Shown here piece after piece: positions 1 through 64,000 of a stretch of DNA of 64,000 nt (its first letter is position 1; the number at the start of each line of letters is the position of its first letter). This DNA comes from Nakazawaea peltata (Eukaryota > Ascomycota > Pichiomycetes > Alaninales > Pachysolenaceae). The stretch lies in NCBI GenBank assembly GCA_001599355.1, contig BCGQ01000006.1:744001-808000 (forward strand), in the 5' to 3' direction. The position numbers and the translations under genes are program-made. The notes beneath the pieces are model-generated. The model saw nothing but the letters and a program-made list of their open reading frames with translations, was not told where the DNA came from and made no database searches.

Positions 1-1
1 A

Positions 2-1234
2 GTGGTGCAGAGTCAGAAGGATGATATGGTATTGTTAATGCTGTGGACAAGGGGATTGAGATTGAGTAAGGATGATATGGAGTATATAAGGAGAGAATAT
101 GGGGTGCATGAAGATGAAGTTGGAGATGAGGGAGAAGAGAAGATGATGGAGGAGGTAGGGGAGGGAGTAGAGGTAGGAGCAGAGGTAATGAGAGGTGAGG
201 AATTGGATGAGGATAAAGATTTAGAAAGAGATATGGACATTGGAAGAGAATTTGAGCTGAAGGAGGAAGAAAGGGTAGTATCAGATCTGTCAGAGAGTCA
301 AGATCTGGTTGTGAATACTGGGCTTGGTCTTATGGGATATAGTTCTAGTGAGGAAGAGGAAGAGGAAGAGGAAGAGGAAGAACAAGGGGAAGAAGATAAT
401 GAGGAACAAGAAGAACAAGAAAACAGTACATATACACATCTGATACCTGAAAGTGAAGGCGAAGTAGATGACCTTCCCACTGAAACAAATACTCATCAAT
501 CCCCAAACATCTCTCTCACAGAATCTGATCAAGACCTCGGAGGGGCCAGTTCCGATTCAGATTCAGAATCTGTAGGTTCAGGAGGTGTAGATTTTGATTT
601 AAGTGATTTAGACGACGACGATAATGAACAAGATACGTCCCAATTCAAGCTGCTTTTGCATGATAAACTGCTGGTACTTGACCCAATGGGACTGTATAAT
701 TTACAAGTTGAAAAATTGGTGTCTGATCCTCGTTTCTATTCCATTGACGACTCAAACTTAAAAAACAGATTATTTGACGAGTGGTGTCTGGAGCAATTAG
801 CCCAAAGAGAATCCAAATCTAATGAAGATGATGAGTCCTCCGGTGCAGATGACTCAAACATCTTCGAGGAAGTTTATGATATGTATCCTGAGTTGAAAGT
901 AGTAGATTATTTAAATGAGAAATATCTGATAGATCTTAAGGAAAAGAAGATGTTCTTATTCGACTTCAAACGTCGCTTCAAAAACGAGTTGAAGTCTGTC
1001 TTATCTTCCGATGTCAACTTCGATAAACTATATAAAGAGTATGTACTCTATCATTTTGATCCGAAAGACACGACCTCCACCAGATGGGCGATGAGTTTCG
1101 ATGGGGAGGAGTCTCCAGAAGGAGGTGAATACCAGGAGAAGCTTAAATCATATTATTCAAAGCTCAAATCTACTGGTGAATTAGATGATGAGAAATTGAT
1201 GAGTGATCTCAAAATGCATAGCAAGAAGTTGTAA
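2..1234 (+). CDS. URN1: Urn1-like pre-mRNA splicing factor, C-terminal part (5' end outside window)
   Basis: The frame is open from the first bases of the window and has no ATG start, so the N-terminus (in Urn1 a WW domain) lies upstream. What remains is about 410 codons. It begins with a stretch resembling the conserved segment before the acidic region of Urn1. A GYSSSEEE-type acidic tract follows near residues 112-140, coded by a GAG-GAA microsatellite. An FF-domain-like segment lies near residues 215-265 (DPRFYSIDD, then RLFDEWC), and a second helical segment follows. Urn1 is a small spliceosome-associated protein of the Prp40/CA150 type. The assignment rests on the GYSSS-plus-acidic signature and the FF-like block, both recalled from the S. 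cerevisiae protein. A different FF-domain protein is possible but less likely. Confidence 0.7.
   Translation: MVQSQKDDMVLLMLWTRGLRLSKDDMEYIRREYGVHEDEVGDEGEEKMMEEVGEGVEVGAEVMRGEELDEDKDLERDMDIGREFELKEEERVVSDLSESQDLVVNTGLGLMGYSSSEEEEEEEEEEEQGEEDNEEQEEQENSTYTHLIPESEGEVDDLPTETNTHQSPNISLTESDQDLGGASSDSDSESVGSGGVDFDLSDLDDDDNEQDTSQFKLLLHDKLLVLDPMGLYNLQVEKLVSDPRFYSIDDSNLKNRLFDEWCLEQLAQRESKSNEDDESSGADDSNIFEEVYDMYPELKVVDYLNEKYLIDLKEKKMFLFDFKRRFKNELKSVLSSDVNFDKLYKEYVLYHFDPKDTTSTRWAMSFDGEESPEGGEYQEKLKSYYSKLKSTGELDDEKLMSDLKMHSKKL
350..380 (+). repeat. GAGGAA coding microsatellite
   Basis: About five copies of the hexamer GAGGAA sit in frame inside the URN1-like gene and code for an unbroken glutamate run. 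Length variation between strains would be expected. Confidence 0.85.
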
Positions 1235-2434
1235 ATAGACAACAGCTAAATGATAAATAATACAAATAGCATAAATAGTACAAAAATCGTAGATAGCTCT
1301 GGCAAGTCAGTAAAATATCAAAACAAACCTGAAACGGAGCTAAAGCCGCACCAGCGCACCGCTATAGTCGTGTACTATACAACAAATATCCCAACTTCAC
1401 TAATTTTGCTCGCGCAGCTCTTTCTTTAATCGTCCTTCTGTTTTTTATGTATGAAACACGAAACTAACAAGGCTTATGCAACGTGACGCAGATGCGAGGA
1501 GAGAAATTCCTAATTATAACAGCTTAGGGCGTTAGTGGCCTGGTGCTGCTCCGCCACGTCGTGGAAAGTATGTCGCGACTCAGTTATTTGATATAGAGCG
1601 GTTTGGATTTATCGACCACACAAACTTCAATAGCCATTGCTATCAGTTCTAACCCCCAATCCTCCTAAAAATAGTGTTGACAATTCATCTTCGATGCTTG
1701 AGTGCACAAAGAAAAAGCTTAAATTATCTATTGAGCCAGATCAAAGACTCTCTGAGCTAGAGTACAAACAAAGTTTGGAACAATAAAATTAAACTTCTAA
1801 CCTTACAGAAGAGCAGCATGGCTTTCAGATGTCACTCCATGAGGGCCCCCCCCCATGATGAATTTACATCTCCAATGCCCCTCTATACTTCCTCTTTACC
1901 ACCTCAACCACCCCCTTTCTCAACAATAGGCACTCTTTTCTTTTTCTTGTTTGCTCGAGAAAAAAATTTTCTTTTCTAGATTTTGATGTTTGTATGGAAA
2001 CTGGATCTATGATGTATTTATGGAAATAAAATTGTTTACCTAATTCTAAGTGATTGAGTATCCAAGTAAAGACCGTTCGTTTCCCCGTTCCTACGAATAA
2101 TTCAAACGTATCACATACTTGATCTCATCGTGGATTATCACCGCTTCGATCCCATAAAACACGCTGACACGGAAAAACAAGTCGGATCAATTTCAGATCG
2201 CTCGCTTAAATAGAGTTTGAATTTCAAACTTGGCAAGACGGTTTTTTACACAAACACAAAAAATATAATATTGAAAACACAAGAGTTGACCAGGGTTCAG
2301 TAACGGAAAACAGACTGTCTCACCAATATCATCGCCATCAACTTACCTCACTGCAAATCAAGCACATATAAACATAATAGAAGGTGTTGTAAGTTGGCGT
2401 ACATTAGGCATTTAAATTCATATTTCAAACAGTC
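1235..2434. other. Intergenic, 1.2 kb, URN1 3' side and KRE6 promoter
   Basis: No open frame or RNA gene is supported here. The stretch holds a C run near 1847-1855, T- and A-rich tracts, and one copy of the recurring element AACCCCCAAT at 1651-1660. The long upstream region would fit a regulated KRE6 promoter, but I see no named factor site I would defend. Confidence 0.6.
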
Positions 2435-4390
2435 ATGAGTACCAGAAATTTAACACATAACGAGGGTATTCCTTCTGATGGGATCACATCATCAGAAGAT
2501 ATTTCTTCACAATCTTCAGATTCATACGTTAACCCATTTGCAAATAACACAGAAGATGCAGAAGAGAAGCTGGACTACTCTGAATCTAGCAACAATGGAG
2601 ACATTCAAATGACAAGCTTTGGAGTCACCCAACATTCATTACTGGTTCCTTCAGAATATGATAGATACCCAAGATCATCGGTAGCCAACTCTCGTATTCT
2701 GTCAATGAGCTCTTCCCTTGCCGGTTCAAGATCCTCTTTGTTGCATCAAAATCAGATATTACATAACCAGACCGATACATCTTCTCGTCTAAGTGCTACC
2801 TCATCGCAACTGACAAGTGGGAACAACCCATTTTTAGTTGATCTGGATTTCTCTCCGTTTGGAGGTTACCCACTGTCCAGCTTCCCTCTCCATATCGACG
2901 AAGAAGAACTGGACGATTATTTGCACAACCCAGATCCGATTCTGGACCTGGAATATGAAAAGAACCGTTTCCTCAGCGATTTGAAAAATATGGACAAGAG
3001 AACAGCTGGTGGTCTTTGCGGTTTAATATGTATGCTTGTTGGTTCCATTCTGGTTTTCATTATCTTACCGGTATTGACATACACTGGTGTCACCGACAAA
3101 GGATCGCCTGAAACATACGAGATTTTAACCGATTATGAATATCCAAAGTTGAGTGCTATTAGAACTAACTTGGTAGATGATGACACTCCAGATAGTGCAT
3201 ACACCAGAGAGGCTAAAGATGGATCGAAATGGTCTTTGGTTTTCAGTGATGAGTTTAATGCAGAGGGGCGTACATTTTATGAAGGGGATGAACAATTCTG
3301 GTACCTGCCAGATTACAACTATCTGTCCACAAAGGATTTGGAATGGTATGATCCAGATCTGGTTACCACACTGAACGGTACCTTGCAATTGAGAATGGAC
3401 CTGATAAAGCAGCATGATTTGTACTATAGATCAGGAATGGTTCACTCTTGGAACCAAATGTGCTTCACACAAGGTATTATGGAGGTGAGCGTCAAATTGC
3501 CTAATTATGGTAATGTCTCCGGTTTATGGCCTGGTATGTGGTCTATGGGAAATTTAGGTAGACCAGGTTACATGGCCACCACTCAAGGTGTTTGGCCATA
3601 TTCTTATGAACTGTGTGATGCAGGTATTACTGCAAACCAGTCTTCTCCAGATGGAATTTCTTATTTACCAGGACAGAAGTTGAACTCATGTACTTGTGAT
3701 GACGAAGACCACCCAAATAAGGGAACTGGTCGTGGTGCTCCAGAAATCGATATTTTTGAAGGAGAAGTAGATACCAACCTTGGACTTGGTGTTCTGTCTC
3801 AATCTTTACAAGTAGCTCCAATGGATATTTGGTACTATCCAGATATTAACTTCATTGAAATCTATAACGATTCAGTCACTACCATGAACACTTATACTGG
3901 TGGACCATTCCAACAAGCCGTTTCTCTGACCACCACACTTAACACTGACTGGTATGATTTGGGAGATTTTGAAAATGGATCTTTCCAAAAATACCTGTAT
4001 GAATATTTGAACGACAATGATGACGGATACATTAGATGGTTCGTCGGAGATAATCCAACCATGACCATGCATCTGTACCTGTTAGCTCCAAACGGTAACG
4101 TTGACTGGAGAAGAATATCTAAGGAACCAATGTCAATGATTTTGAACTTGGGTATTTCTAACAACTGGGCTTACATTGACTGGCCATCCATCAAATTCCC
4201 GCTGACCATGGAAATTGACTATGTTAGAATTTATCAACCAAATGACAGCATCCTGCTTACTTGTGACCCAGATGACTACCCTACCTATAACTATATTGAG
4301 GACCATCTTGATCTGTACGATAACTACAATGCGACTACATGGGAAGAAGCCGGCTACTCATTCCCTAAGAATAAGTTAACCGGATGTTAG
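2435..4390 (+). CDS. KRE6: Kre6/Skn1-family beta-1,6-glucan synthesis protein
   Basis: This type II membrane glycoprotein of the secretory pathway is needed for cell-wall beta-1,6-glucan. It has 651 codons, slightly shorter than S. cerevisiae Kre6 (720) or Skn1 (771). Residues 1-190 form a Ser/Asn-rich cytosolic tail. One hydrophobic helix spans about residues 192-217. The lumenal part is a GH16-like domain with the signature EIDIFE near residues 436-441. Blocks such as KDLEWY and GLWPGMW match the family. CTG codons fall where Kre6 has Ala, as in FW-x-A-PD and RMDA. The ATG at 2435 is the first in frame. The gene is alone on its strand between URN1 and ILV2. I saw no second paralogue in the window, so it may serve for both KRE6 and SKN1. 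Confidence 0.92.
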   Translation: MSTRNLTHNEGIPSDGITSSEDISSQSSDSYVNPFANNTEDAEEKLDYSESSNNGDIQMTSFGVTQHSLLVPSEYDRYPRSSVANSRILSMSSSLAGSRSSLLHQNQILHNQTDTSSRLSATSSQLTSGNNPFLVDLDFSPFGGYPLSSFPLHIDEEELDDYLHNPDPILDLEYEKNRFLSDLKNMDKRTAGGLCGLICMLVGSILVFIILPVLTYTGVTDKGSPETYEILTDYEYPKLSAIRTNLVDDDTPDSAYTREAKDGSKWSLVFSDEFNAEGRTFYEGDEQFWYLPDYNYLSTKDLEWYDPDLVTTLNGTLQLRMDLIKQHDLYYRSGMVHSWNQMCFTQGIMEVSVKLPNYGNVSGLWPGMWSMGNLGRPGYMATTQGVWPYSYELCDAGITANQSSPDGISYLPGQKLNSCTCDDEDHPNKGTGRGAPEIDIFEGEVDTNLGLGVLSQSLQVAPMDIWYYPDINFIEIYNDSVTTMNTYTGGPFQQAVSLTTTLNTDWYDLGDFENGSFQKYLYEYLNDNDDGYIRWFVGDNPTMTMHLYLLAPNGNVDWRRISKEPMSMILNLGISNNWAYIDWPSIKFPLTMEIDYVRIYQPNDSILLTCDPDDYPTYNYIEDHLDLYDNYNATTWEEAGYSFPKNKLTGC

Positions 4391-4580
4391 ACATTTATAC
4401 ATTTATATAGAAAGTAATTCATTCAAGTCATTAAAGCGGTGTAGTGATGTTTATGGTAACCCCCAATTTAAAATTAAGCAAAATAAAAAAAATAAAAAAA
4501 AAACTAAATAGACACAGAATGTTTTCCCTTTTCTTCAGTTAGCTAAAAAAAAATTTTTTGTAAAGCTCAAATTGACAGAG

Positions 4581-5081: not shown

Positions 5082-5088
5082 TATATAA
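5082..5088 (+). promoter_or_regulatory. TATA element of ILV2
   Basis: TATATAA sits 68 bp before the ILV2 ATG, a usual yeast distance when the 5' leader is short. Confidence 0.55.
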
Positions 5089-5155: not shown

Positions 5156-7231
5156 ATGTTATCCAGAACAAATATGTGGCTGAGCAGGGCGCTGACCCTG
5201 ACTCTGGCCCTGAAAAGAAGTCTTAATAGTAGAAAGACCCTCATCACTAAGAGTAATATTAGATCATTACACAACTCGAGTAATAAAAGCTCGTCTGCCG
5301 CCGCCGCCGCTGCTACTTCAGGTGTCAGAAGACCTAGACCAGCCCCAGCTTTCAACCAATCTACCGAACTGGAGAAGTTGTCAAATACTTCCGCCGGTAC
5401 CGCTTCGAAGCAAAAAATGGATGATTCTTTCATTGGTTTAACCGGAGGTCAAATTTTCCATGAGATGATGCTTAGACACAACGTTGACACCGTGTTTGGT
5501 TACCCAGGTGGTGCCATCTTACCAGTATACGATGCCATCTACCAAAGTCCGCACTTCAAGTTCGTCTTGCCTCGTCATGAACAAGGTGCTGGACATATGG
5601 CTGAGGGATATCTGAGAGCCAGTGGAAAGCCAGGTGTCGTTTTGGTCACTTCTGGTCCAGGTGCTACTAACGTTGTTACCCCTATGGCTGACCTGTTAGC
5701 CGATGGTATTCCATTGGTTGTTTTCACTGGTCAAGTTGCCACATCTGTCATCGGTACCGATCTGTTCCAAGAAGCCGATGTCGTTGGTATTTCTAGATCT
5801 TGTACCAAGTGGAACGTTATGGTTAAGAATGTGGCTGAATTGCCAAGACGTATTAACGAGCTGTTCGAGATTGCCACCAGTGGAAGACCAGGTCCAGTCT
5901 TAGTTGACTTGCCAAAGGATGTGACCCTGCTGATCTTGAGAGAACTGATCCCAATCAACTCCACTTTGCCTTCTCAAACTTTGAAGAGCATCACCAGTTC
6001 TCTGATCAACGAATTCACCACCGAGCTGATGGAAAGAGCTCTGAAATTGTTGAACATTGCCAAGAAGCCAATCTTATACGTTGGTAACGGTCTTCTGACC
6101 TCCCCAGAGGGTCCAGCTCTCCTCAAGGAATTGTCCGAGAAGCTGAAGATCCCAGTAACAACTACTATTCAACTGTTAGGTCTGTACGACCAAAGAGATC
6201 CAAAGTCCTTGGACATGTTGGGTATGCACGGAAGTGGATTTGCCAACTTGCTGATGCAACATCTGGACTGTATTGTAGCGTTGGGTGCCAGATTCGATGA
6301 CCGTGTCACCTTGAACGTCTCCAAGTTTGCTCCACTGCTGAGATTACTGGCTCTTGAAGGTAGAGGTGGTATCTTGCACTTTGAGATCAGTCCTAAGAAC
6401 ATCAACAAGGTCGTTGAGCTGACCGAACTGATTGAAGGTGACGTCACCACTAACTTGAAGCAATTTATTCCAATGGTTGACTCTGTTCCAGAGAGACCAG
6501 AATGGCTTAATCAAGTTGCTGAATGGAAACTGAAATATCCATACGACTACCAAAAGGAAACTCCAGGATCTAAGATCAAACCACAAACCTTGATTACAGA
6601 AGTGTCTGAGCAATCTTCCAAGTTAGGTAAGGAAGTCATCGTCACCACCGGTGTCGGACAACATCAAATGTGGGCCCTGCAACACTTCACATGGACCAAA
6701 CCAAGATCTTTCATCACTTCTGGTGGTTTGGGTACCATGGGTTACGGTTTGCCGCTGCTGATTGGTGCCCAAGTCCTGAAGCCTGACGCCTGTGTTATCG
6801 ACATCGATGGTGATGCTTCTTTCAACATGACCTTGATGGAAATGTCCAGTGCTGTGCAACTGAACCTGCCTGTTAAGATCATCGTCCTTAACAACGAGGA
6901 ACAAGGTATGGTTACTCAATGGCAATCTTTGTTCTACGAGCACCGTTACTCCCATACTCATCAATTCAACCCAGACTTCATCAAGTTACTGGAGCTGATG
7001 GGAATGAAAGGTATCAAGTTGGTAAAACAAGAAGAAATGAAGGACAAGGTTGCTGAGTTCTTGGCCTACTCTGAAGGTCCAGTCTTAATGGAAGTTGTCA
7101 TTGAAAAGAAGGTTCCAGTCTTACCAATGGTCCCAGCTGGTAAGCTGTTGGACGAGTTCATCTCTTTCGACCCTGAAGTTGAGCAACAACAAAATGAGTT
7201 GAGAAAGCAGAGAACAAACGGTGAGTACTAA
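5156..7231 (+). CDS. ILV2: Acetolactate synthase catalytic subunit, mitochondrial
   Basis: This ThDP enzyme catalyses the first common step of valine, leucine and isoleucine synthesis in mitochondria. It has 691 codons against 687 in S. cerevisiae. Residues 1-85 form a basic, Ser/Ala-rich presequence that becomes strongly Ala-rich once CTG is read as Ala. The catalytic Glu is E142 in HEQGAGHMAEGY. The ThDP-binding block GDASFN...NNEEQG lies near residues 550-582. Alignment from memory with yeast Ilv2 puts roughly 19 of about 37 CTG codons on Ala positions, including both Ala of YGLPAAIGAQVA (CTG at 6755, 6758 and 6776) and the Ala pair before ILR. Invariant Leu residues use TTG, TTA, CTT or CTC. 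The regulatory subunit ILV6 is not in the window. Leu3 and TATA sites lie upstream. Confidence 0.98.
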   Translation: MLSRTNMWLSRALTLTLALKRSLNSRKTLITKSNIRSLHNSSNKSSSAAAAAATSGVRRPRPAPAFNQSTELEKLSNTSAGTASKQKMDDSFIGLTGGQIFHEMMLRHNVDTVFGYPGGAILPVYDAIYQSPHFKFVLPRHEQGAGHMAEGYLRASGKPGVVLVTSGPGATNVVTPMADLLADGIPLVVFTGQVATSVIGTDLFQEADVVGISRSCTKWNVMVKNVAELPRRINELFEIATSGRPGPVLVDLPKDVTLLILRELIPINSTLPSQTLKSITSSLINEFTTELMERALKLLNIAKKPILYVGNGLLTSPEGPALLKELSEKLKIPVTTTIQLLGLYDQRDPKSLDMLGMHGSGFANLLMQHLDCIVALGARFDDRVTLNVSKFAPLLRLLALEGRGGILHFEISPKNINKVVELTELIEGDVTTNLKQFIPMVDSVPERPEWLNQVAEWKLKYPYDYQKETPGSKIKPQTLITEVSEQSSKLGKEVIVTTGVGQHQMWALQHFTWTKPRSFITSGGLGTMGYGLPLLIGAQVLKPDACVIDIDGDASFNMTLMEMSSAVQLNLPVKIIVLNNEEQGMVTQWQSLFYEHRYSHTHQFNPDFIKLLELMGMKGIKLVKQEEMKDKVAEFLAYSEGPVLMEVVIEKKVPVLPMVPAGKLLDEFISFDPEVEQQQNELRKQRTNGEY

Positions 7232-7792: not shown

Positions 7793-9463
7793 TTAGGTGC
7801 GCACATCTGGTTCTTCTTTGCCCAAGAACTCCTTGAACTTCAACAGATCCAAGACGATCAGGATGTCATCTGCCAAGAACTCAGACAGAGATAACGAGTA
7901 CTTGCTCAGGTCATTACAATGCTTCTCTAAGTACAATCTGACAGTAGCACCTGAAGACCCAGTACCCGATAATCTGACAATGAAACGTAAGCCATTCACC
8001 AACTTGATATATAAACCTTGCTTGGAAGAGACAGAGCCATCCAAATCGGTGTAACTGAAGTTTCCGGCATCAGCAACCTTGATTCCACCAACAGATTCGA
8101 TCTTTTCATCAATCATCTTTTCCAAGTTGTCTACCAATTTGGCAGCACCTTCTGAACTAACACCCTCGTAGTCATAACGGGTGAAGAAAGTACGTCCATA
8201 AGTGTGCCAGAAGTCACTTTGTACCATCTCGATGGTAGCACCACCCTTGATATTATGCTTGGAATCGTAGTACAGTAAGACGTTCAACCACAGAATGATC
8301 AGCCATAAACCGTCCTTTTCTCTAATATGATCACTACCAGTACCAAAACTCTCTTCACCACAGATACTCAATTTTTTCAGGTCGAACAAAGCACAGAAGA
8401 ACTTCCAACCGGTTGGTACCTCGTAACAGTTGAGCCCCTTCAGCTTCAGAACCAAGTCAATGGCACCACTAGTAGGCATAGATCTCAGAAGTCCGTAAAC
8501 GTTTTGCTTGAAGTAAGGAATCAGATCCTTCAGATAATGCAGAATGATCAGAACAGAGTCACCTGGAGACACAAAAGTGTTTGCACCGTAGATCATGTTT
8601 CTGTCTCCATCACCATCGGACAGAGCACCAAACAGGATTCCATCCAGATCAACCTTGTTGACCAAGTGGCTCAGGTAAGTCAAGTTTGGATCTGGGTGCA
8701 ATCCACCGAAGTCTGGCAAAGGAGTACAGTTTTGAATGCTGGACTCAGGCAATCCCAATTCCTCACAGAAAAACAGTTTACCGTAAGGACCGGTGACACC
8801 ATGCATGGCATCGAACAACACCTTGAAGCCTTCTGGACTACGCTTGGCCAAGAATTGCTTGATCAAGTCCAAATCGAAGATTGACTTAACCATAGCGATA
8901 TAATCGGCAGTACTGTCGATGATCTCCACCTCAATTGGTCCGATGGTGTGAGATCCCAACTTTGAGAGATCAACTTGAGCACCCAAGCCCTTGATCTGTT
9001 TATAGTGAGTTAACTGCTTAGATACCTCATAGATTTTATTGGTGACCGATTCAGGCAGTGGACCACCATTGCTCAAGTTGTATTTGATACCGAAATCATT
9101 CTCTGGTCCACCTGGGTTGTGCGACAGGGTAAGAATGATACCTCCAGTAAGCTTCTTAGTACGGATCACATTAGACAGCAGCGGGGTAGATAAGATACCA
9201 TTCTGACCCACGACCAACTTGCTGACACCATTGGCGGCACCGATCTCAACAATTAACTTGATGACTTCATCATTGTAGAAACGACCATCACCTCCAATAC
9301 ATAATTGCAGATCCTTGGCCCCCTCAGGGATCGAGTCCATAATCAGCTGGACGAAATTTTCAGTATAATGAGGAGATTGGAATACCTTCACCTTCTTTCT
9401 CAAACCAGAAGTACCTGGCTTCTGATCAGTGAAGGGAGTAGTAGCTATCGTCTGGATATCCAT
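7793..9463 (-). CDS. PGM2: Phosphoglucomutase
   Basis: This cytosolic enzyme interconverts glucose-1-phosphate and glucose-6-phosphate, linking glycolysis to glycogen, trehalose, galactose and cell-wall precursors. Its 556 codons are near the family length (569 in S. cerevisiae). The phosphoserine loop T-A-S-H-N-P-G-G has Ser114; the Ala before it is coded by CTG (9125-9127), one of the clearest proofs of the altered code. The metal loop DGDGDR is near residue 281 and the sugar-binding GEESFG near 369. Further CTG = Ala positions are the two Ala after LSTP, NGGPAPES, FGAASDGDGD and FDAKKLS. I cannot tell PGM1 from PGM2 orthology. A TATATATATA run lies about 70 bp upstream of the ATG. Confidence 0.97.
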   Translation of the reverse strand: MDIQTIATTPFTDQKPGTSGLRKKVKVFQSPHYTENFVQLIMDSIPEGAKDLQLCIGGDGRFYNDEVIKLIVEIGAANGVSKLVVGQNGILSTPLLSNVIRTKKLTGGIILTLSHNPGGPENDFGIKYNLSNGGPLPESVTNKIYEVSKQLTHYKQIKGLGAQVDLSKLGSHTIGPIEVEIIDSTADYIAMVKSIFDLDLIKQFLAKRSPEGFKVLFDAMHGVTGPYGKLFFCEELGLPESSIQNCTPLPDFGGLHPDPNLTYLSHLVNKVDLDGILFGALSDGDGDRNMIYGANTFVSPGDSVLIILHYLKDLIPYFKQNVYGLLRSMPTSGAIDLVLKLKGLNCYEVPTGWKFFCALFDLKKLSICGEESFGTGSDHIREKDGLWLIILWLNVLLYYDSKHNIKGGATIEMVQSDFWHTYGRTFFTRYDYEGVSSEGAAKLVDNLEKMIDEKIESVGGIKVADAGNFSYTDLDGSVSSKQGLYIKLVNGLRFIVRLSGTGSSGATVRLYLEKHCNDLSKYSLSLSEFLADDILIVLDLLKFKEFLGKEEPDVRT

Positions 9464-10078: not shown

Positions 10079-11554
10079 CTATCTATTACTATAATATAAA
10101 ACTACCTCGTTGATCAGCTCAGCAATGCGACCAACATTCATCTCATTGACACCTGCCATAGAAACTCTACCACTCTTCAGCATATAAACGGCATGACGAG
10201 ATTCCAAACGGCCAACTTCGTCTTCACTCAATCCGGTGAACGAAAACATACCTTGTTGGTCGGTTATATGAGACCATTCTCCCGGAGTATTCATCTCTTC
10301 CAATTTCGATCTGAGTAATTGTCTCATCTCAATAATTCTAGAACTCATCTCTTGTAAATCCTTTTCCCATTGCAGCTTCAACTCTGGAGTAGTGAGGATC
10401 TTGGCTACCACTTTGGCTCCGTACAGTGGAGGGTTTGAGATCTCAGTTCTTACCCATCTTTGGAATTGCGACATTAACAGATCTTTAAGCTCGATGGTCT
10501 TGCCCTTGGCTACATCAGGGTCCAGTTCTTGTGCTCCTGGGAGAACTACATGGAAACAACCAACTCTTTCACCGTACATACCAAAGTTTTTCAGGAAGGA
10601 TTGACAAATCAAAAATGGAATGCCGAGAGTACCCAGGTATCTAACAATCCAAGAATCCTTCTCTAACGATCCCGAGGTGAAACCTTGGTATGCACTGTCG
10701 AATATTGGCAAATGCTGACCTGCAATGATCAGTTCTAAAATCTGTTGCCATTCTTCATGGGTAGGATCCATACCAGTAGGGTTATGAGCACATGTATGAA
10801 GCAAAAAGACACTTCCAGGGGTCAGATTACGAATCAGCAGCAACATACCATTGAGATCAAGCGATTTCAAGTGGTTATTCCAGTAAGGATACTTCTCCGT
10901 GTGAAGTCCTTGCTGCTGGAAGATTTGCAAATGGTTACCCCAAGTAGGTCCAGACATATAAATAGTAGGTAATTCTCCATTGTCATCTTTCAAAAATTTA
11001 GAGATCAATTTAGACAGTAAATGTAACAGCCCAGTACCAGAGAGACTTTGAACTGAACAAACTCTTCCCTCATGGATCAGTGGGGAGTTCTCACCCAAGA
11101 TCAAGTTCAGCAGCTCGAGTTTCAATGACTCAAGACCAGCAATTGGTAAGTACTCATGGTTATAGTTAGGGTCACGCTGCACGAGTTGTTCCAGCTCATG
11201 AACACTTGGCAAGATCCAGGTCTCACCCTTCAGATTTCTGTAAGCGCCAATTCCTAAATCAATCTTCTCAGGTCTCAGGTCTTGCAGGTATCTTCTCTTC
11301 AAATCGAAAAGCAGATCTGGCGGGAGACGAGTAATATTTTGCGTATTAAACCAATTGGCAGAAGCAGCGGCAGCGGCAGTAGCGGCAGCGGCAGCAGCTG
11401 TAGCTGTATGATTAGCATAGTCAGACAGAGCAATTGGTGATACTGGAGTCTTAGTCAGACCGGCACCCAGCAGGGCGGTTTTCTTTGCAAGACCACCCAA
11501 TGGGGCAGCCTTCCCTCCTAATTTCTTCTTAATAGTGGAAGTGAAAGAGTTCAT
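10079..11554 (-). CDS. AAT1: Aspartate aminotransferase, probably mitochondrial
   Basis: This PLP enzyme exchanges amino groups between aspartate and 2-oxoglutarate (malate-aspartate shuttle). It has 491 codons, longer than a cytosolic AAT (about 420). Residues 1-70 form a basic, Ser/Thr/Ala-rich extension ending in a poly-Ala linker; with CTG = Ala the KKTAAAGAGATK part also becomes Ala-rich. This suggests a mitochondrial presequence and hence AAT1 rather than AAT2. NPTGMDPT and the PLP-lysine motif SFAKNFGMYGERVG (Lys322) are present; the Ala before that Lys is a CTG at 10592-10594. The gene lies between PGM and BAT on the same strand, each with its own promoter. Targeting is inferred from composition only. 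Confidence 0.93.
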   Translation of the reverse strand: MNSFTSTIKKKLGGKAAPLGGLAKKTALLGAGLTKTPVSPIALSDYANHTATAAAAAATAAAAASANWFNTQNITRLPPDLLFDLKRRYLQDLRPEKIDLGIGAYRNLKGETWILPSVHELEQLVQRDPNYNHEYLPIAGLESLKLELLNLILGENSPLIHEGRVCSVQSLSGTGLLHLLSKLISKFLKDDNGELPTIYMSGPTWGNHLQIFQQQGLHTEKYPYWNNHLKSLDLNGMLLLIRNLTPGSVFLLHTCAHNPTGMDPTHEEWQQILELIIAGQHLPIFDSAYQGFTSGSLEKDSWIVRYLGTLGIPFLICQSFLKNFGMYGERVGCFHVVLPGAQELDPDVAKGKTIELKDLLMSQFQRWVRTEISNPPLYGAKVVAKILTTPELKLQWEKDLQEMSSRIIEMRQLLRSKLEEMNTPGEWSHITDQQGMFSFTGLSEDEVGRLESRHAVYMLKSGRVSMAGVNEMNVGRIAELINEVVLYYSNR

Positions 11555-14000: not shown

Positions 14001-15386
14001 CTATTGTCTTTCAAGAGCTTGTTGATAAAGAATCAGCTCTTTAGTCTCCAGATCTACACAATCCAGGAAGATGGATTCATCTACATCTGCGAGACCTGCT
14101 TTTTTAACACCTTTCTGTCCTTTCATAGTGTATTCATAAGTCAATTGACTACTATTGGAACTGGCCACCTTGGTAAAATTCAGATGTGTAGGTTGGGTAT
14201 GCAGAGGTACAAATTTCAAATTAGTGTACTTGTCAGTGAGATATTTTGGTCTGGATGCGTAGAGATATTCGTTGAATTGAGAAGATGAAGCTGCCATATT
14301 GTATATCCAAGTCAGAGGAGATAATTTGGTATTTCTCTTGAAATCATCACGTCTTACTTCTGGTCTCTTTTCTGTTGACAGGCCATCAGATGCACCTGGG
14401 GTTCCATTCGAGCCAGATTTCTTTGAACCTTGCTCTGTCAAACTGTGTAATTCATGACTTCCAACAGCACTTCCTACTACTTGATATTCCTCAGGGAAAG
14501 AGACTGGCTCTCCCTCTTTAACACCACGAATCTCAGTCAAATTATCACGCAGCTCTTGTTCGTAATAGTCATCAACAACGTGCTTTCCATTCACAATCAT
14601 AAGCAGTCCGAATTCTCTGAAAGCTGATCTTGCAGTAATTAATCCAATTGTACGCAGCTTGTAACTCAAAGGCATCAACTCTCTGTCGATCAAATCTTGT
14701 TTCTGTTTGTCGGTGGTGATGTATTTGAATAATTTGTTATGTTCTTTAAAAAACAAGTATGAGTCTCTGAAACCCATCAATCTCAGCAGTTCAGTACTCA
14801 ACATATATAATCTTTCACCTTTATCGAGAACAGTGAACACTTTAATACGATACTCACGACCTCCAGTTAATTCTCCTAAGTCAGTCACTTTTTTCTCACC
14901 TTCTTCATCTGTAGGCAATACGAATTCGTCGTTAACTAACTCAAGTTCCCCCTTCTCTTCTTTATCAGCTAACAGGTCATCTGGAATTACAGTCTCATCC
15001 AGTATCAGATCAGCCTCGGGAGCATCGTCTTCCAATTCGATCTCATTCTCACTCTCGCTCTCACTTTCACTTTCGATTTTTTGCTTCTTCGAGCTTCCTC
15101 CAGCTTTGCTGCCAGATCTCTTTCTACTTCTTCTCAACTTACTATCATTCAGTTCATCATCTTCTTCTTCCTCGTCATCTTCCTCTGGTTCTTCTTCATC
15201 GTACTCATCATCATCGTTCTGTTCCATGCTTGTGTCTTCGACAGCTAAAAGTCCTCCCGCTGTTGAACTGGCTGCTACGGCGGCGGCCCTTTTAGTTCTT
15301 CTTGGAGAGGATTCGTCGACAATTGCATCAGGAGACGATTCAGCTGCGAATCTCAGTGATGCTCTTCTACCAGATCTACTTCTCAT
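14001..15386 (-). CDS. RSC7: RSC chromatin-remodelling subunit Rsc7/Npl6 (Rsc7/Swp82 family)
   Basis: This nuclear subunit belongs to the RSC remodeller. The 461-codon protein starts with a basic patch, then a long Asp/Glu-rich region (about 55-165) containing a basic nuclear-localisation-like cluster (RRSRKRSG). The family domain spans roughly residues 180-300: LTGGREYRIKVFTV, RLYMLSTE, GFRDSYLFF, then TARSAFREFG and VVDDYYEQE. CTG = Ala restores TEAAR and REFGA, which are nearer the family pattern than the Leu readings. The C-terminal 150 residues hold the conserved nuclear-pore-localisation-like tail. Swp82 of SWI/SNF is the close alternative; the acidic N-terminus and length favour Rsc7. 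Confidence 0.82.
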   Translation of the reverse strand: MRSRSGRRASLRFAAESSPDAIVDESSPRRTKRAAAVAASSTAGGLLAVEDTSMEQNDDDEYDEEEPEEDDEEEEDDELNDSKLRRSRKRSGSKAGGSSKKQKIESESESESENEIELEDDAPEADLILDETVIPDDLLADKEEKGELELVNDEFVLPTDEEGEKKVTDLGELTGGREYRIKVFTVLDKGERLYMLSTELLRLMGFRDSYLFFKEHNKLFKYITTDKQKQDLIDRELMPLSYKLRTIGLITARSAFREFGLLMIVNGKHVVDDYYEQELRDNLTEIRGVKEGEPVSFPEEYQVVGSAVGSHELHSLTEQGSKKSGSNGTPGASDGLSTEKRPEVRRDDFKRNTKLSPLTWIYNMAASSSQFNEYLYASRPKYLTDKYTNLKFVPLHTQPTHLNFTKVASSNSSQLTYEYTMKGQKGVKKAGLADVDESIFLDCVDLETKELILYQQALERQ

Positions 15387-17549: not shown

Positions 17550-19559
17550 ATGAGTAATTCTAGTGGACCGGCAGATTCTGAAGAGGTGAATCAGGTCACT
17601 CTGGACTTTATTCTCAAGGATCTGTATGACCACAAAGATGGTGGGGTAAGTCATACTGATTTCAAGATCGCTGATATGGAGGAGTTAAGAGAGTATCAGT
17701 CTCGAATCCGCTCCTCCTATGAAAAACTGTTACAGTTCAAGAGGTCCGATTTGCCTCAATATATACGGTACCTGAGATGGGAATGGTCCTTGCATAATTA
17801 TACTAGGGCAAGATCTATATTTGAGAGACTGTTATCGTTTGATCATTCCGATGTCAAAGTGTGGTACAGTTACATTCAGATTGAATTGAAACTGCTGAAT
17901 TTGAATCATCTGAGAAATTTGTTGGAGAGGCTGATCCTGTTGTTACCAAGAGTGGATAAATTTTACTATGAGTATATTCAGTTAGAAGAGAAGTTAGGTC
18001 AATATCAAAATGTCCACTCCATTTTCAGAAGATGGTTAGGCTGGAAACCAGGAAGTGTCAAGATCTACCAAAATTTCATTAATTTTTTGGTCAAATATAA
18101 AGATTTTGATCAACTGAGATCGGTGTATGAGGAGTTAATAAGAAAGCTCCCCGATATAGACAATTTCCAACTTTACATCCAGTTTGAATTGAAGCATGGG
18201 ACTAATGAGTCTATACAACATCTCTTTAATTTGACAATTGAGAGTCTCATCAACTTGGATAAATTGCAGCCTGAAATCTTAGAGTTGTATCTGAACTATC
18301 TTTATAAGAACCTCAAAGATTTAGACAAACTGCGAGAAGTTTATAAGTTTGGTATCAACCAAGGATTTAGAGAGTTACTCGAGCCTTTGACATTGATGGA
18401 GAAACAACATGGTGATAACAAAGATCGAGTAGAAGAGCATATTTTACTTAAAAGAAGTTTAAAGTACCACGATGACATAAAGCTGGGAAATGTTCATCTT
18501 GATTTAATTTGGGATTATTTGGATGTATTGGAAGAGATGCACAACTTAAAAGGATCTGATTTTGAGTTTTGTATCGACCAGATCAACTTTCATACAAAAG
18601 AAACTCCAAGCACAGATACTTCTTTTTTAATTTGGCTTCGTTATCTCTATTTTGCTGAATTGAGTAAACTCGATGAGGTTGGATCGTTATATAAGAGAGC
18701 TTCCAAGATTTTTAAAGATAAAGAAGACTTTTTTATCAAATATCTGCAATTCGAGCTCAGAAGCAATACGGACTTGACTAAACTGAGAAAGATTTTCGGT
18801 TATGCAATGCTGAAATTGCCTCACTCAAAAGCAATTTTAAGTCTGTATGTTGAATTAGAAGGTTCTTTGAGAGATGTGGAGAGAATTAGAAAGATTTTCG
18901 AAAGTTATTTAGGCAGAAATGAACTAGAAATTGAAATCTGGTTAAAGTTTATAGATTTTGAGCAGAACTTGAAGGAGTTTAAAAGATGCGAGGAAATTTT
19001 CGAGATTGTTATAGATGTTTTGAATTCCAGCAAAGACGTCTCCCAGTCGCAATTACTGTCTGTCTATAAGAAGTACTTAGAGTTCTTATTCGGTACATTA
19101 CAATTCGAGAAAACTAGAGATATATACAAGTCACTCATCAAGTCAAGCAATAACGTTCATATTATTATTGCTTACCTGTTGAATGAATTAAAGATTCCTA
19201 ACGAAGATCAATTGCAGCTGTTGGAAAATACCGATGAGAATGAAGATATTGAGTTTGTGATTTCTGATCTGCAAATTACTAATCTGCAAAATTTGTTCGT
19301 CAAGTATCTTGATGAGTATAAGCTGAAACTGCCAGCTCAAAACGACGACCGGATCATCTTATATCAACTGTATCAGGGATTCATTAAGAATTATAGACCT
19401 GACGAATTACTGGAGGTCGAGTCTAATGGTCCTAAATTAGTCAGGAAAGTCAATGAAGAAGGACAAGAAGAGTTGGTATTTGTTTTCAATGACAAGCCAG
19501 CTTTGTCATTTTTGGAGAATGCTAAGAAATGGATGATGCTCCAGCAAAAGGAGGACTAG
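17550..19559 (+). CDS. CLF1: Clf1 (Syf3/crooked-neck) HAT-repeat splicing factor
   Basis: This essential scaffold of the Prp19-associated spliceosome complex has 669 codons (687 in S. cerevisiae). It consists almost wholly of tandem HAT repeats, seen as the recurring W-x-x-Y/F and AR-x-IFERLL patterns: YIRYLRWEW, RARSIFERLL, KVWYSYIQIELK, LPRVDKFYYEYIQLEE, SIFRRWLGWKPG and later units to about residue 560. The ATG at 17550 opens a short leader and then the conserved QVTLDFILKDL. No intron is evident. The last 38 bp overlap the end of the convergent TilS-like gene. URN1, another splicing factor, is at the left edge of the window; I see no sign the two are linked. Confidence 0.94.
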   Translation: MSNSSGPADSEEVNQVTLDFILKDLYDHKDGGVSHTDFKIADMEELREYQSRIRSSYEKLLQFKRSDLPQYIRYLRWEWSLHNYTRARSIFERLLSFDHSDVKVWYSYIQIELKLLNLNHLRNLLERLILLLPRVDKFYYEYIQLEEKLGQYQNVHSIFRRWLGWKPGSVKIYQNFINFLVKYKDFDQLRSVYEELIRKLPDIDNFQLYIQFELKHGTNESIQHLFNLTIESLINLDKLQPEILELYLNYLYKNLKDLDKLREVYKFGINQGFRELLEPLTLMEKQHGDNKDRVEEHILLKRSLKYHDDIKLGNVHLDLIWDYLDVLEEMHNLKGSDFEFCIDQINFHTKETPSTDTSFLIWLRYLYFAELSKLDEVGSLYKRASKIFKDKEDFFIKYLQFELRSNTDLTKLRKIFGYAMLKLPHSKAILSLYVELEGSLRDVERIRKIFESYLGRNELEIEIWLKFIDFEQNLKEFKRCEEIFEIVIDVLNSSKDVSQSQLLSVYKKYLEFLFGTLQFEKTRDIYKSLIKSSNNVHIIIAYLLNELKIPNEDQLQLLENTDENEDIEFVISDLQITNLQNLFVKYLDEYKLKLPAQNDDRIILYQLYQGFIKNYRPDELLEVESNGPKLVRKVNEEGQEELVFVFNDKPALSFLENAKKWMMLQQKED

Positions 19560-24592: not shown

Positions 24593-26357
<1,765 letters not shown>

Positions 26358-41700: not shown

Positions 41701-44142
41701 ACCTTACAACTGGGTCTTGCCGAAGCTGATGCCAGAGATGCCGACTCTAAGCAAGGTATTTGTATCGCTGTAAGAGAGTTGATCGAGTCTTCTGCCGAGG
41801 ACACCGTCCGCACCTACCAACCTCAATTCGTCTCTATTGTTAGAGAGGCTCTTGTCGATGGAGATGCCCAGGTCAGAGATCTGGCTCTGTCTCTGTTCGA
41901 TGTATTGCAAGATGTCATTGGCAATGCTGCTATTGATGATATCATCCCTCATTTGTTACATCAATTGGCCAGCTCAGAAGCTGCCGAATCCGCAAATGCT
42001 TTACTGGCCTTGCAAGATATCATGGAGAAGAAGTCGGATGTGATTTTCCCAATTTTGATTCCTACTTTGATCCAACAACCGATCGATCTGTTCCGCCTGC
42101 AACTGTTACTGTCGTTGCTGGAGGTTGCCGGTTCCGCTTTATACAAGCGTTTGTCTGTAATTATCAATGCTTTCGTAGAAACTTTGCTCGGTTTGCAATC
42201 CGAGTCACGTGACCAAAATCGCGAATCCGTCGCTGCCGCTTTTGATTCGGTTCTTTTGTCCGTTGACAGTGATGAAGGATTACACCCATTGCTCCAGCAG
42301 CTTATTCTGCTCATGAAGCATGAGGATGCCCAACGTCGTGCCGTTATCTACAGTCGTTTGGCTCCATTCTTCAAGGGAACTACTCTCGATTACTCTATCT
42401 ATACACTGGATATTGTCACTCATTGTATTATGACTTTGGATGACCGTGATAGTACTATTGTTGAGTCTTCATTCCTGCTGTTGACCGAGTTGGTCAAGAG
42501 ACAGTCCAAGGAGTCGTTGGAGAAACTTGTCAAGCCTCTGCAACAACTGTTACGTTTGACCGGTACTCCTGGAGGTTCCGATGCCGATGCCGTCGCTGCC
42601 TTCTGCTTACCTCGTGGTCCAAACTGTATTCTTCCAATCTTCTTGCACGGTTTGATGTATGGAAGTAATGAACAGCGTGAGTTGTCGGCTCTTCTGATTG
42701 CCGATATTGCCGAAAAGACTCCAGCTGCTAACTTGAAGCCTTTCGTTACCGTCATGGTGGGTCCTTTGATCAGAGTTATTGGAGAGAGATTCTCTGGAGA
42801 AGTCAAGCTGGCTATTTTGTACCTGTTGAACGTTTTGTTCGGTAAGATTCCTCAATTATTACGTCCGTTTGTACCTCAATTGCAACGTACCTTTGTCAAG
42901 TCGTTGTCTGATGCTTCGAACGAGTTACTTAGATCCAGAGCTGCTAAGCTGTTGGGTACATTGATCGAGTACCAAGCCAGAGTTGATCCGTTGGTCAATG
43001 AATTGGTTGCTGGTTGTAAACTGCTGCTGCTGCTGCTGCTGCAACAAGGTCAAGCCCAAGCTCAGGCCCAACTGTTGGGAGTCGCTACTTCTAGCAGTGC
43101 CACTGCCAATGCTGCCGGTGTTCAAACTGCTATGTTGAAACTGTTGTTAGAGGTGGTCAACAAGCTGGGTCATAAGATGAGTGAAGCTTCTAAGAACAAT
43201 GTTATGGACTTGGTTGAGCAAGAGATTGCCGGTTCTACCTCTTCATCCACCACCTCTTCTGTAGGTGGTTCCGGTTCTGATAAGATGGCTGTGGCTTATG
43301 CTCGTTTAGTGGGATGTCTTGCTAAGATCTTGACTAGCGATGAGCTGTCAAAGGTATTGAAGCTGAAGGTTTTGACTGCTAAGGCTGGTGATGATTCGCT
43401 CAAGTTTGGTGTTTTGACTCTTAATGCCTTCTTGAGAGACCTGCCTCGTCATATCTTTGAGACAGGACTTGTTGAGGAGATTGCCAAATTCATCGGGGTA
43501 TGCTGTGAGTCTCCATTACTGTATATCAGTGACAATGGAGTTCTCGCTGCTGGTAAATTGTTACTTTTGCAAGGGCAGACTAGCTCTCCTCACTCTGGTA
43601 CAAACGAAGACTCAGTACTGGCCTTCGTTATTCCTGATGAGGTTGTAGAGAGTCTTGTTGAGCTTCTTCTGAAACTGCTGACCAAACCGGCCAGTAACTC
43701 TCTTGATACTCGTCGTCTCAGTCTCGTGGCTGTTCGTACTTTGGCCAGATTCCAACTTGATCTGATCATCAAACCGTATATCGACATTCTTCTGCCTGGA
43801 GTATTTGCCTGTGTTCGTGATGTGATTATTCCAATCAAGTTAGCTGCTGAGAAGCTGTTCTTGCTGATCTTCGATTTCGTAGGGGATGTTGAATTGAAAC
43901 AGTTCAATGCTTGGCTTGAAAAGATCTCACTGGGTGGAAACACCACTGTCACTGCTGTTTCTGGCCAAGTCATTCAATTGAGATCAATTGGAGATTATCT
44001 GAAGAGAGTAGGAGTGAGATTACTGAATGTTGAGAGAGAGAGAGTTGCTGCTGGAGGTGATCTGGAACAAATGTTCAGTGATAGATATGAAGATGAGACT
44101 GAGATTTGGGCCGTTGGTGGAGTTGATTTATCGACTGAATAG
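35773..44142 (+). CDS. GCN1: Gcn1, ribosome-bound activator of the Gcn2 kinase
   Basis: This giant HEAT-repeat protein binds stalled or colliding ribosomes with Gcn20 and passes the uncharged-tRNA signal to Gcn2. It has 2,789 codons in one exon (2,672 in S. cerevisiae). HEAT-like helical repeats run throughout. The conserved eEF3-like centre is recognisable near residues 1380-1850, for example LAHRRGALYGIAGLVKG and RAGFMPLLLFLPVCFG. The Gcn2-binding (RWD-binding) region should lie near 2050-2400. Acidic inserts occur near 1025 (EEDPEEEQ) and 1860 (EEDEDEDSG). A run of seven CTG codons (43021-43041) codes Ala7, followed by QQGQAQAQAQ. The start is the first ATG. GCN1 is the sensor side of the Gcn4 pathway whose sites appear upstream of BAT and MET17. 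Confidence 0.96.
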   Translation: MEAGLETRLQVSSLKQRLEVLSQIEEKLGTLTATECASLSLHLLNTFKYYQDSKSRALVVQLLKKIVQLQSALLPKFGAFILAQVDNEKSIAITSLLSLFEFTTNLFAFETLSGELCDAQLILFDKLLCVCDISSRKDHHKRIRASIEAEMVRCFVAATVSIAGSDEVTLLISKYIDTVLGSKKLSISAKLAIVGCLGLLAEDASVPQLHHVVQSKSKAILELLCKEISTAKTLSNEHCIYLFTVGFLNHHITKEDAQSTLVPTIEKCGLRNSELTYTQLTPAMFEHLSCNWLSLKTVSGSKIGSQLVSSLKLTKENTREGLRRSFELLMSSVSEISEDESKAASDLVDGLFTLFKSLSLSAVDQKKLFCSCFSSLLRCPAAAATARAKICTSLLPLILKDQNEISLSYQLDSFIKNCGGDIEPYVSQIEKGLQDKKLNLRKCWYIALGEVESDKIPDSIKKLMIEGCSDIWTNPIQAITNKCIESVYVTIVKTREVEVLKKALTESAAPAVSVISSSRVFSKFSTDLEKQWHQRALYSIVEESEKHQLDIDSLGDSLVYSLVSNQIPSSLRLELLKNLGSVLETCENGLKIGEILLLRLSEKLTELQELMKSSELVEISLLIDIKAIPPVINIVTQKIGGSEELKMQIIAELVVICHQMPASMLKGSWIGVIQRLGLDPGAVVKQQGAEMMTKLIESLGSTCKVGSLPYKAMVSLIATLLFIEPELVLSQLGDILRSDLDSDQFSAISDLDLAIWRHHSTGLDNEPFVDVLSDAPKIVNDKNSKDFETLQWEEKIRKDLAAKKGGKPKKKLTKEEMSQVSEQLSKEKTISSDVELSKARLQRGFNIIQLLTSSGETVDNNRDVWFPVGVEKILQLLKGGNNKVVLALVGDFALEIFLEMSRLLSARLGSLKLFLGVATIRVLGVDLETPALKNFSHLAQEPLMELVSRVLFRVKFLGSQRSLDSTTVVYILPLLTLLLYKGAALLKKKSGGAQAPVMVKAEFVEEDPEEEQLMLLMEIVATHLELFQDITIPRKPILQVLLSLLLLPLKLKLAKECLSVLCLNISVNISRPDLDLLLEHSIKPEVFVRTTVLELLDTEFDLSEQNITYSDEIWIAVHDTELVCRELALTIWEESGFKLDSGSVEQLMDRHIGEKDTGVRLSVLTLLLTLVTHVNGEDPDFFTGVFLDKTLALFDEKLKPPAPVLDKFGMVIQDLTDLQKDEWELRSGLAVLWKLMLPLFGVNTVAVAKFFEFLCLGEYLALKDKESSVRQELQDAGVAVIEATKAQHMELLIPIFEEVLGAKDEGTKTQDQVRESVIILYGSLLRHVPSGDDPRLKRVVSQLIKTLDTPSEDVQFAVSECLAPLVPLLDSGSGSAEIGSLIESLFTKLFEGSSLAHRRGALYGIAGLVKGAGIKLLAQYDVMREVIALAENKKELKRREGASFVIECLSQSLGQYFEPYVIEVLPIILKQLGDSSLEVRELTDYATRVIMKNTTSYGVKKLIPVLIGNLDDILWRTKRGSVDLLGAMLYLDPLQLSSSLSTIVPEIVAVLNDSHKEVRKSADAALKRFGDVIRNPEIQNLVPTLLKAIGDPAKHTDSALDLLIQTQFVHYIDGPSLALIIHVIHRGMHDRSALTRKKLCQIVGNMSILVDTRDLLTYLPQLVQELELSMVDPVPLTRATLARLLGSLVEKLGEEQFPDLIPKLLDTLQDDDKLKAGDRLGSAQLLSEIISALGISKLEEMLPLILEKLSSRSTGGSVVRAGFMPLLLFLPVCFGMQFSTYLDRVIPVILEGLAADEEVRETALKLARLIVKNYATRAVDLLLPELERGLSDHSYRIRLSSVELTGDLLFQVTGISGKLEHSEEDEDEDSGVSSGFNVSQVLIEALGQERRDSILASLFVCRQDTSALVRNATVDIWKLLVPNTPKTIKEILPTLVAIIVRHLLSTDATQRTIAALTLGELARRVGSSNALPSILPTLQLGLAEADARDADSKQGICIAVRELIESSAEDTVRTYQPQFVSIVREALVDGDAQVRDLALSLFDVLQDVIGNAAIDDIIPHLLHQLASSEAAESANALLALQDIMEKKSDVIFPILIPTLIQQPIDLFRLQLLLSLLEVAGSALYKRLSVIINAFVETLLGLQSESRDQNRESVAAAFDSVLLSVDSDEGLHPLLQQLILLMKHEDAQRRAVIYSRLAPFFKGTTLDYSIYTLDIVTHCIMTLDDRDSTIVESSFLLLTELVKRQSKESLEKLVKPLQQLLRLTGTPGGSDADAVAAFCLPRGPNCILPIFLHGLMYGSNEQRELSALLIADIAEKTPAANLKPFVTVMVGPLIRVIGERFSGEVKLAILYLLNVLFGKIPQLLRPFVPQLQRTFVKSLSDASNELLRSRAAKLLGTLIEYQARVDPLVNELVAGCKLLLLLLLQQGQAQAQAQLLGVATSSSATANAAGVQTAMLKLLLEVVNKLGHKMSEASKNNVMDLVEQEIAGSTSSSTTSSVGGSGSDKMAVAYARLVGCLAKILTSDELSKVLKLKVLTAKAGDDSLKFGVLTLNAFLRDLPRHIFETGLVEEIAKFIGVCCESPLLYISDNGVLAAGKLLLLQGQTSSPHSGTNEDSVLAFVIPDEVVESLVELLLKLLTKPASNSLDTRRLSLVAVRTLARFQLDLIIKPYIDILLPGVFACVRDVIIPIKLAAEKLFLLIFDFVGDVELKQFNAWLEKISLGGNTTVTAVSGQVIQLRSIGDYLKRVGVRLLNVERERVAAGGDLEQMFSDRYEDETEIWAVGGVDLSTE
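43021..43041 (+). repeat. (CTG)7 tract inside GCN1, read as Ala7
   Basis: Seven in-frame CTG triplets (codons 2417-2423 of GCN1) would be Leu7 in the standard code but Ala7 here. It lies in a low-complexity insert between helical repeats. Confidence 0.85.
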
Positions 44143-59525: not shown

Positions 59526-59615
59526 ATATCCCAATATATAATTTATATCTCATAAAATATCAGCAAATTGTATCAGTTGTTGTGTATTATAGTATACATG
59601 TTAATTTTTATTACA

Positions 59616-63475: not shown

Positions 63476-63716
63476 TTTTAAGTCTCTCAATGCCTATCTG
63501 TACCCGGTGATGATCCAGACTCATCGTCTTCAAGCGCTAGACGCGGTTGATTTGTGCAAGTGGTGTTTGTCGTGTAAATAAATCTAAATACCCCAATTAG
63601 GAAATCATAAAATTTTTCAGCACCAAACGAAGACTGGAGAGAAAGTGAAGAGGGAGTTGGTTGGACAGCAGAGAGTCAGACTAGGCTTTGTCAGGGAAAT
63701 TAAGTTGGTAGATTGC

Positions 63717-64000
63717 ATGATGTTGTCACGTTTTGGAATCAGATCGTTCTCGCAGCTGAGATTGCTCCAGCAATCAATGTGCAAAGAGGGCACTGTATTG
63801 AACTTAAAGGTGAAGAAAACCGGTAAGGAACCGGTAGCATTACTGGACAGTGAATATCCGGAATGGTTATGGAAATTGACAGACCCGGAACTGCAAAAGG
63901 CTAAATTAGATGCTGATCCTATTAGACGTGCACGTAAACTGCTTCGGAAGCTGAATGTTGCCAAGATCAAGCTGAATAATTTCACTGCCAAATTGAATGG
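63717..64000 (+). CDS. MRPL37: Mitochondrial ribosomal protein L37 (mL54), 3' end outside window
   Basis: This large-subunit protein of the mitochondrial ribosome opens at tandem ATGs (63717 and 63720) and runs off the window after 94 codons. The first 20 residues (MMLSRFGIRSFSQARLLQQ) resemble a mitochondrial presequence. The family block DSEYPEWLWKL lies near residue 45, followed by a basic helix with RRARKALRKANVAKIKANNF. In that block the three CTG codons give Ala; the resulting RKAN...KIKANNF agrees with the family better than the Leu reading. It shares a 241-bp promoter with DPB11. Confidence 0.82.
   Translation, partial: MMLSRFGIRSFSQLRLLQQSMCKEGTVLNLKVKKTGKEPVALLDSEYPEWLWKLTDPELQKAKLDADPIRRARKLLRKLNVAKIKLNNFTAKLN

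Follow-up and report, generated by a model that had tools for sequence, protein, structure and literature searches.

A 64-kb stretch of a yeast genome (hereafter the window; G000:C6:744001-808000, from an assembly of 11.63 Mb in 11 contigs) was analyzed for the meaning of its CTG codons. With a probability of roughly 0.97, the DNA is nuclear and belongs to a budding yeast of the Alaninales (Pachysolenaceae) in which CUG is decoded as alanine. The alanine reading had been put forward in an initial annotation made from the sequence, and it was borne out by the residues found opposite CTG in protein alignments, by Pfam scores under codes 1 (standard), 12 (CUG-Ser), and 26 (CUG-Ala), and by a tRNA(CAG) gene with G3:U70, A73, and a short variable arm. 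The CUG-Ala code itself is already known as NCBI table 26 of the order Alaninales. A further point at the genome level, and a less expected one, is the extent of CUG uptake and its relation to expression.

The alignments were made with the CTG positions masked. ILV2 was aligned with 117 of the 120 listed homologues, PGM (phosphoglucomutase) with 118 of 120, and GCN1 with 57, which are the leading 60 of a list of 120 minus three. From each alignment set, the nearest relative and Pachysolen were excluded as possible users of the same code; P0071 and P0135 were excluded for unusual length. No weighting was applied to the sets, in which Candida-clade sequences are abundant. Usable columns were obtained for 173 of the 187 CTG codons in the three genes. 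Summed over these columns, the log-odds is +203 nats for Ala and -186 nats for the runner-up, Ser, an Ala signal that is far from chance. Where the column is conserved at 80% or more (67 columns), the residue is Ala in 59, and at 95% or more it is Ala in all 36. Of the Leu columns at the 80% level, 242 of 269 are occupied by the other five Leu codons, two by CTG, and 25 by other codons; at the 95% level the corresponding numbers are 171, zero, and six of 177. Thus, the initial claim that no CTG falls on an invariant Leu holds at the stricter threshold, but not at the looser one, where one codon of ILV2 (6095-6097) and one of PGM are found on Leu columns.

Each codon was also scored against the columns in which it occurs. 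Of the 52 codons with eight or more columns, 51 gave their standard residue as the best one, and only CTG departed from this; eight codons had fewer columns, and CTA had only one. In the same alignments, the control codons came out with their usual meaning, TTA, TTG, CTT, and CTC as Leu and GCT and GCC as Ala. A CTG profile dominated by Leu or Ser was looked for and not found.

Open reading frames (ORFs) of at least 150 amino acids number 29 in the window, and 25 were used after exclusion of nested ones. The genes that carry the evidence, and one codon run, are as follows, with coordinates in the window.
5156..7231, plus strand: ILV2 (acetolactate synthase), 37 CTG codons; Ala in 20 of 21 CTG columns conserved at 80% or more, Leu in one (6095-6097, residue 314)
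35773..44142, plus strand: GCN1, 124 CTG codons; Ala in 26 of 31 CTG columns at the same level
7793..9463, minus strand: PGM, 26 CTG codons; Ala in 13 of 15 CTG columns at the same level
10079..11554, minus strand: aspartate aminotransferase (AAT), CTG as the Ala of SFAKN (10592-10594); 13 of 20 aligned CTG codons are Ala in 1yaa
12205..13365, minus strand: branched-chain aminotransferase (BAT), CTG at both Ala residues of HYAFELFEGLKAYR; 3 of 5 aligned CTG codons are Ala in 2cog
14001..15386, minus strand: RSC7-like subunit, CTG at REFGA (14604-14606); Ala in the RSC7 chain 6k15_F
17550..19559, plus strand: CLF1-like splicing factor, 27 CTG codons; 10 of 27 aligned are Ala in the CLF1 chain 5lj5_S
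25032..26357, plus strand: MET17-like homocysteine/cysteine synthase, CTG at HSATKW (25659-25661); 14 of 20 aligned CTG codons are Ala in 8ovh
2435..4390, plus strand: KRE6/SKN1 family protein, CTG at RMDA (3401-3403); Pfam 793.9, 823.6, and 811.5 bits under codes 1, 26, and 12
22023..23546, plus strand: C2H2 zinc-finger protein (candidate MIG1), CTG at KAFHRLEHQ (22191-22193)
43021..43041, plus strand: seven consecutive in-frame CTG codons in GCN1, poly-Ala here and poly-Leu under the standard code

The initial annotation had placed CTG at eight coordinates, and every one of them is an in-frame CTG at the named motif; in the five motifs that it had named without coordinates, CTG likewise falls on Ala. 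The PGM sites lie in TASHNP (9125-9127) and FGAASDGDGD (8621-8623). One assignment needed adjustment: the BAT codon at 13078-13080 is indeed a CTG on Ala, but it is the Ala of GLKAYR, while the Ala of HYAFE is a separate second CTG. The Ala residue was confirmed with independent homologues, by alignment for ILV2, GCN1, and PGM, by structures for AAT, MET17, BAT, and CLF1, and for RSC7 by eye in the printed alignment, where REFG plus CTG stands against KEFGA. For RMDA of KRE6 and KAFHRLEHQ of MIG1, the check covered the codon, which is as claimed, and the Pfam scores. The names KRE6 and MIG1 come from the initial annotation, and Pfam backs them at the family level (SKN1/KRE6/Sbg1 and C2H2 zinc finger). 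The run of CTG codons in GCN1 is followed by a Q/A-rich stretch; under table 26, such a CTG repeat becomes poly-Ala.

In the Pfam comparison, 15 chosen domain rows were scored under the three codes, omitting the overlapping HAT/TPR rows of CLF1, the secondary rows of MET17, and further zinc-finger rows. Table 26 was the best in 13 of the 15, and the sums were 2943 bits for Ala, 2823 for Ser, and 2750 for Leu. When AAT, MET17, BAT, and CLF1 were each compared with one solved structure, Ala was found opposite 40 of 72 aligned CTG codons and 30 of 69 GCN codons. Thus, CTG appears to be no less Ala-like than GCN in these comparisons, although the structure search was run with the standard translation and is therefore biased against the Ala reading.

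A pattern search of the genome for the anticodon CAG gave 11 matches, all of which were checked by tRNA scan, and a single real tRNA was among them, at G000:C4:81426-81498. Its variable loop is five bases long, its anticodon loop is UUCAGGU (G37), and it carries G3:U70 and A73. The sequence can be fitted to a cloverleaf in which the acceptor stem has one mismatch (U6:U67) and the D stem another. Alanine tRNAs are classically identified by G3:U70. By its sequence features, this tRNA(CAG) is of the alanine type. ARAGORN labeled it Leu(cag) from the anticodon, a label that was rejected because of the short variable arm and G3:U70. No second copy was found by BLAST of its sequence against the genome. 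Two patterns and two BLAST queries turned up no long-armed tRNA(CAG) of the Leu or Ser type, which would have spoken for another decoding; this search is blind to a gene that carries a long intron or an unusual T loop, and one scan in it scored 63 of 608 candidates. The only tRNA-shaped one of ten long-arm CAG matches, C6:401507, proved to be a tRNA-Leu(AAG) with CAG inside a stem; the other nine were assessed by eye only.

Among 13 matches to a UAG pattern, no tRNA-Leu(UAG) was recognized: 12 were Asp and Gly tRNAs hit in the D loop, as judged by eye and position, and the remaining one was a short match at C3:419970. With patterns spanning the anticodon to the T loop, four genes were counted for tRNA-Ala(AGC), two for tRNA-Ala(UGC), five for tRNA-Val(AAC), one for tRNA-Val(UAC), and one for tRNA-Leu(AAG), while none was seen for tRNA-Ala(CGC) or tRNA-Val(CAC). 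All six tRNA-Ala(AGC/UGC) genes found are on contig 9. CTA is the rarest Leu codon in the window (33 of 1491), which is consistent with a lone tRNA-Leu(AAG) serving the CUN box.

How might CUG be read as alanine? According to PMC5951914, recognition by alanyl-tRNA synthetase (AlaRS) is independent of particular anticodon bases. The single tRNA gene would supply a tRNA(CAG) with the G3:U70 and A73 acceptor stem, and, once expressed, this tRNA may be charged by AlaRS because the enzyme recognizes the acceptor stem rather than the anticodon; alanine would then be inserted at CUG. The ancestral leucine tRNA for CUG would have been lost, leaving CUU, CUC, and the rare CUA to tRNA-Leu(AAG) and UUR to its own tRNAs. 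CUG would then have spread to become an ordinary alanine codon, used even for alanines that are invariant or catalytic; some highly expressed genes are an exception and prefer GCU and GCC.

Several observations weigh against this interpretation. The residue is not Ala in eight of the 67 CTG columns conserved at 80% or more (T 3, L 2, S 2, Q 1). Two Pfam rows do not favor table 26, namely BAT (98.0, 97.8, and 96.0 bits under codes 1, 26, and 12, by which codes 1 and 26 are not separated) and one zinc-finger row of the 22023..23546 protein (30.4, 33.7, and 34.0 bits in the same order). In the tRNA(CAG), there is the U6:U67 mismatch, and its minimum-energy fold is not a cloverleaf, although the same is true of the tRNA-Ala(UGC) fold. 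Its body matches tRNA-Ala(AGC) at 50 of 69 positions and tRNA-Val(UAC) at 51 of 70, which is a tie. It also keeps A35, G37, and A73, which are reported as leucine identity bases in yeast (PMC8629427).

The last point suggests that CUG may be mostly alanine with a few percent of leucine, charged by way of the retained A35, G37, and A73. The G37 of Candida albicans tRNA-Ser(CAG) is held in PMC5951914 to cause about 3% leucine mischarging, and a de novo peptide study mentioned in PMC8645108 put Leu at 10% in Pachysolen. However, PMC8645108 itself calls the 10% figure mistaken and gives more than 99% Ala for Pachysolen. By simple arithmetic, 3% Leu per site would place at least one Leu in 68% of ILV2 chains (37 CUG codons) and in 98% of GCN1 chains (124 CUG codons). 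A codon that often inserts leucine should be avoided at invariant alanines, but the CTG share of Ala codons runs 36%, 40%, 57%, 48%, and 42% from Ala-poor to Ala-invariant columns, with 59 of 166 at the Ala-poor end and 36 of 85 at columns with at least 95% Ala. Thus, CTG is about as free on invariant alanines as elsewhere, which argues for faithful decoding and makes such leucine ambiguity unlikely, if still the strongest of the competitors.

The mixed likeness of the tRNA raises a question about its origin. The D stem agrees with tRNA-Val(UAC) at 8 of 8 positions and the anticodon stem at 7 of 10, against 5 of 8 and 3 of 10 with tRNA-Ala(AGC), while the acceptor, variable, and T regions are closer to tRNA-Ala(AGC) than to tRNA-Val(UAC). 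It is conceivable, though unlikely, that the CUG tRNA arose from another tRNA body (Val(UAC)- or Gln-like) that was given G3:U70 for AlaRS, and not by an anticodon change in a tRNA-Ala, the route reported by Krassowski et al. 2018 (PMC5951914). A simpler account of the mixed likeness would be that a copy of a tRNA-Ala drifted independently.

Decoding as serine, as in the Candida clade (table 12), is very improbable. Ser is the second most frequent residue at the CTG columns of ILV2 and GCN1, but it is also second at GCN columns, so that the runner-up at CTG simply tracks Ala. Table 12 does exceed table 1 in the Pfam sum and is the best for one zinc-finger row; against this stand the negative log-odds for Ser, the two Ser residues among 67 conserved CTG columns, and a variable arm too short for the Ser type. 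The least credible alternative is the standard code with a pattern produced by poor alignments or contamination, since the two CTG codons on Leu columns at the 80% level are opposed by zero of 177 against 36 Ala columns at the 95% level, by the other Leu codons scoring as Leu in the same alignments, by the Ala-type tRNA(CAG), and by the frequency of CTG elsewhere in the genome (71 ORFs in 20 stretches, homologues not aligned).

How far has CTG been taken up under the alanine reading? In the 25 ORFs of the window, CTG is the top Ala codon (527 of 1407), at 33 per thousand codons. In a genome sample of 200 kb (20 stretches of 10 kb on contigs 1-4, with 71 ORFs), it makes up 812 of 2732 Ala codons (30%), at 18.6 per thousand, second to GCT. 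The window is thus richer in CTG than the genome average. TEF1- and PGK1-type genes are highly expressed in yeasts. Named here from Pfam matches (EF-Tu domain 3, PGK, and ribosomal L5), TEF1, PGK1, and RPL5 have CTG at 0 of 33, 8 of 46, and 0 of 38 Ala codons, respectively; three TEF1 codons were unreadable. TEF1 and PGK1 were chosen as high-expression genes, while RPL5 is the sampled ORF with the lowest CTG share and hence a selected case. Over 69 sampled ORFs, the CTG share correlates weakly with codon bias (rho -0.25, p 0.04), and the clear drop is confined to the three genes, of which PGK1 still has eight CTG codons. This pattern is consistent with selection at the level of translation against CTG, given the one tRNA gene found for it.

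The use of CTG also varies among other genes of the window. Two neighboring and similar transporters on the minus strand (26389-28053, MFS_1 by Pfam, and 28515-30197, judged by sequence) have few CTG codons, at 8 of 43 and 11 of 56 Ala codons, and membrane proteins may use CTG less. A PP-loop ATPase (PF01171; 19522-20928, minus strand), which I take to be tRNA-lysidine-synthase-like, likewise has few, at 6 of 26 Ala codons, and the 3′ ends of this gene and the CLF1-like gene overlap by 38 bases, tail to tail. A KilA-N domain protein (44968-46458, minus strand) is very Q/A-rich, with 19 CTG and 53 GCN codons, the CTG codons being scattered in Q tracts.

The initial annotation had also assigned the window to the rare CUG-Ala clade, and a GCN1 tree (21 rows, one gene, midpoint root) agrees with this. 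The window groups with its nearest relative with a support of 100, and the two then join Pachysolen tannophilus with a support of 99; the branch of the window is long (0.72), and it is among four rows flagged for unusual composition. In the NCBI taxonomy, Alaninales consists of one family, with Pachysolen, Nakazawaea, and Peterozyma. Identity to the Pachysolen proteins at non-CTG positions is 75% for ILV2 and 57% for GCN1, which implies a species other than P. tannophilus and probably another genus. No named Nakazawaea or Peterozyma protein was found among the matches listed. A member of one of these two genera is a plausible source of the window.

The nearest relative has Leu at nine of 150 conserved-Ala columns, compared with one of 2987 for 20 other homologues per protein. 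This excess looks like that of a CUG-Ala gene read by the standard code. At eight of the nine Leu positions, the window itself has CTG (Fisher p 0.01 against GCN), which would make some of the CTG sites old. The window has CTG at 59 of the same 150 columns. If the proteins of the nearest relative were translated by the standard code, CTG would have spread much further in the lineage of the window. For ILV2, GCN1, and PGM alike, the nearest-relative homologue lists 71651 bases as its longest contig, a hint that gene order is conserved.

According to Krassowski et al. 2018 (PMC5951914), the CUG-Ala change was found in 2016; they report one Leu-to-Ala change, in the clade of Pachysolen, Nakazawaea, and Peterozyma, the latter two having been assigned to it by BLAST and mass spectrometry. 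The window resembles P. tannophilus (table 26) in the presence of CUG on conserved Ala, in the Ala-type tRNA(CAG), and in its family according to the GCN1 tree, but comes from a different species. The CUG-Ser codes of Serinales and Ascoideales concern the same codon and the same type of event, a new tRNA(CAG) from another tRNA (PMC5951914), whereas the residue, the tRNA class, and the clade differ. In Ashbya mitochondria, Leu codons are also read as Ala (PMC3874161), although that case is mitochondrial and concerns other codons, CUU and CUA. As for codon usage, a 2019 survey omitted five CUG-Ala genomes (PMC6701816), and a 2024 survey accounted for CUG reassignment (PMC11540330). In the portions of this literature that were available, no statement was found of CUG as the leading Ala codon in any yeast, and the supplements of the 2024 survey may cover usage.

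For this yeast, an annotation by the standard code would give a wrong residue at roughly every 30th codon in the window and every 54th in the sample. The mixed likeness of the tRNA(CAG) and its retained leucine identity bases raise side questions. With respect to translational selection, ordinary genes make frequent use of a codon with one tRNA gene found, and TEF1 and RPL5 do without it. Finally, CTG is more than one base change away from every GCN codon, and the nearest of these, GCG, leads to it via Val GTG or Pro CCG, yet CTG accounts for 59 of the 133 Ala codons at columns with at least 80% Ala. This yeast is therefore a rich case for switching between synonymous codon islands, comparable to the switch between the two serine islands, but with a known starting point.

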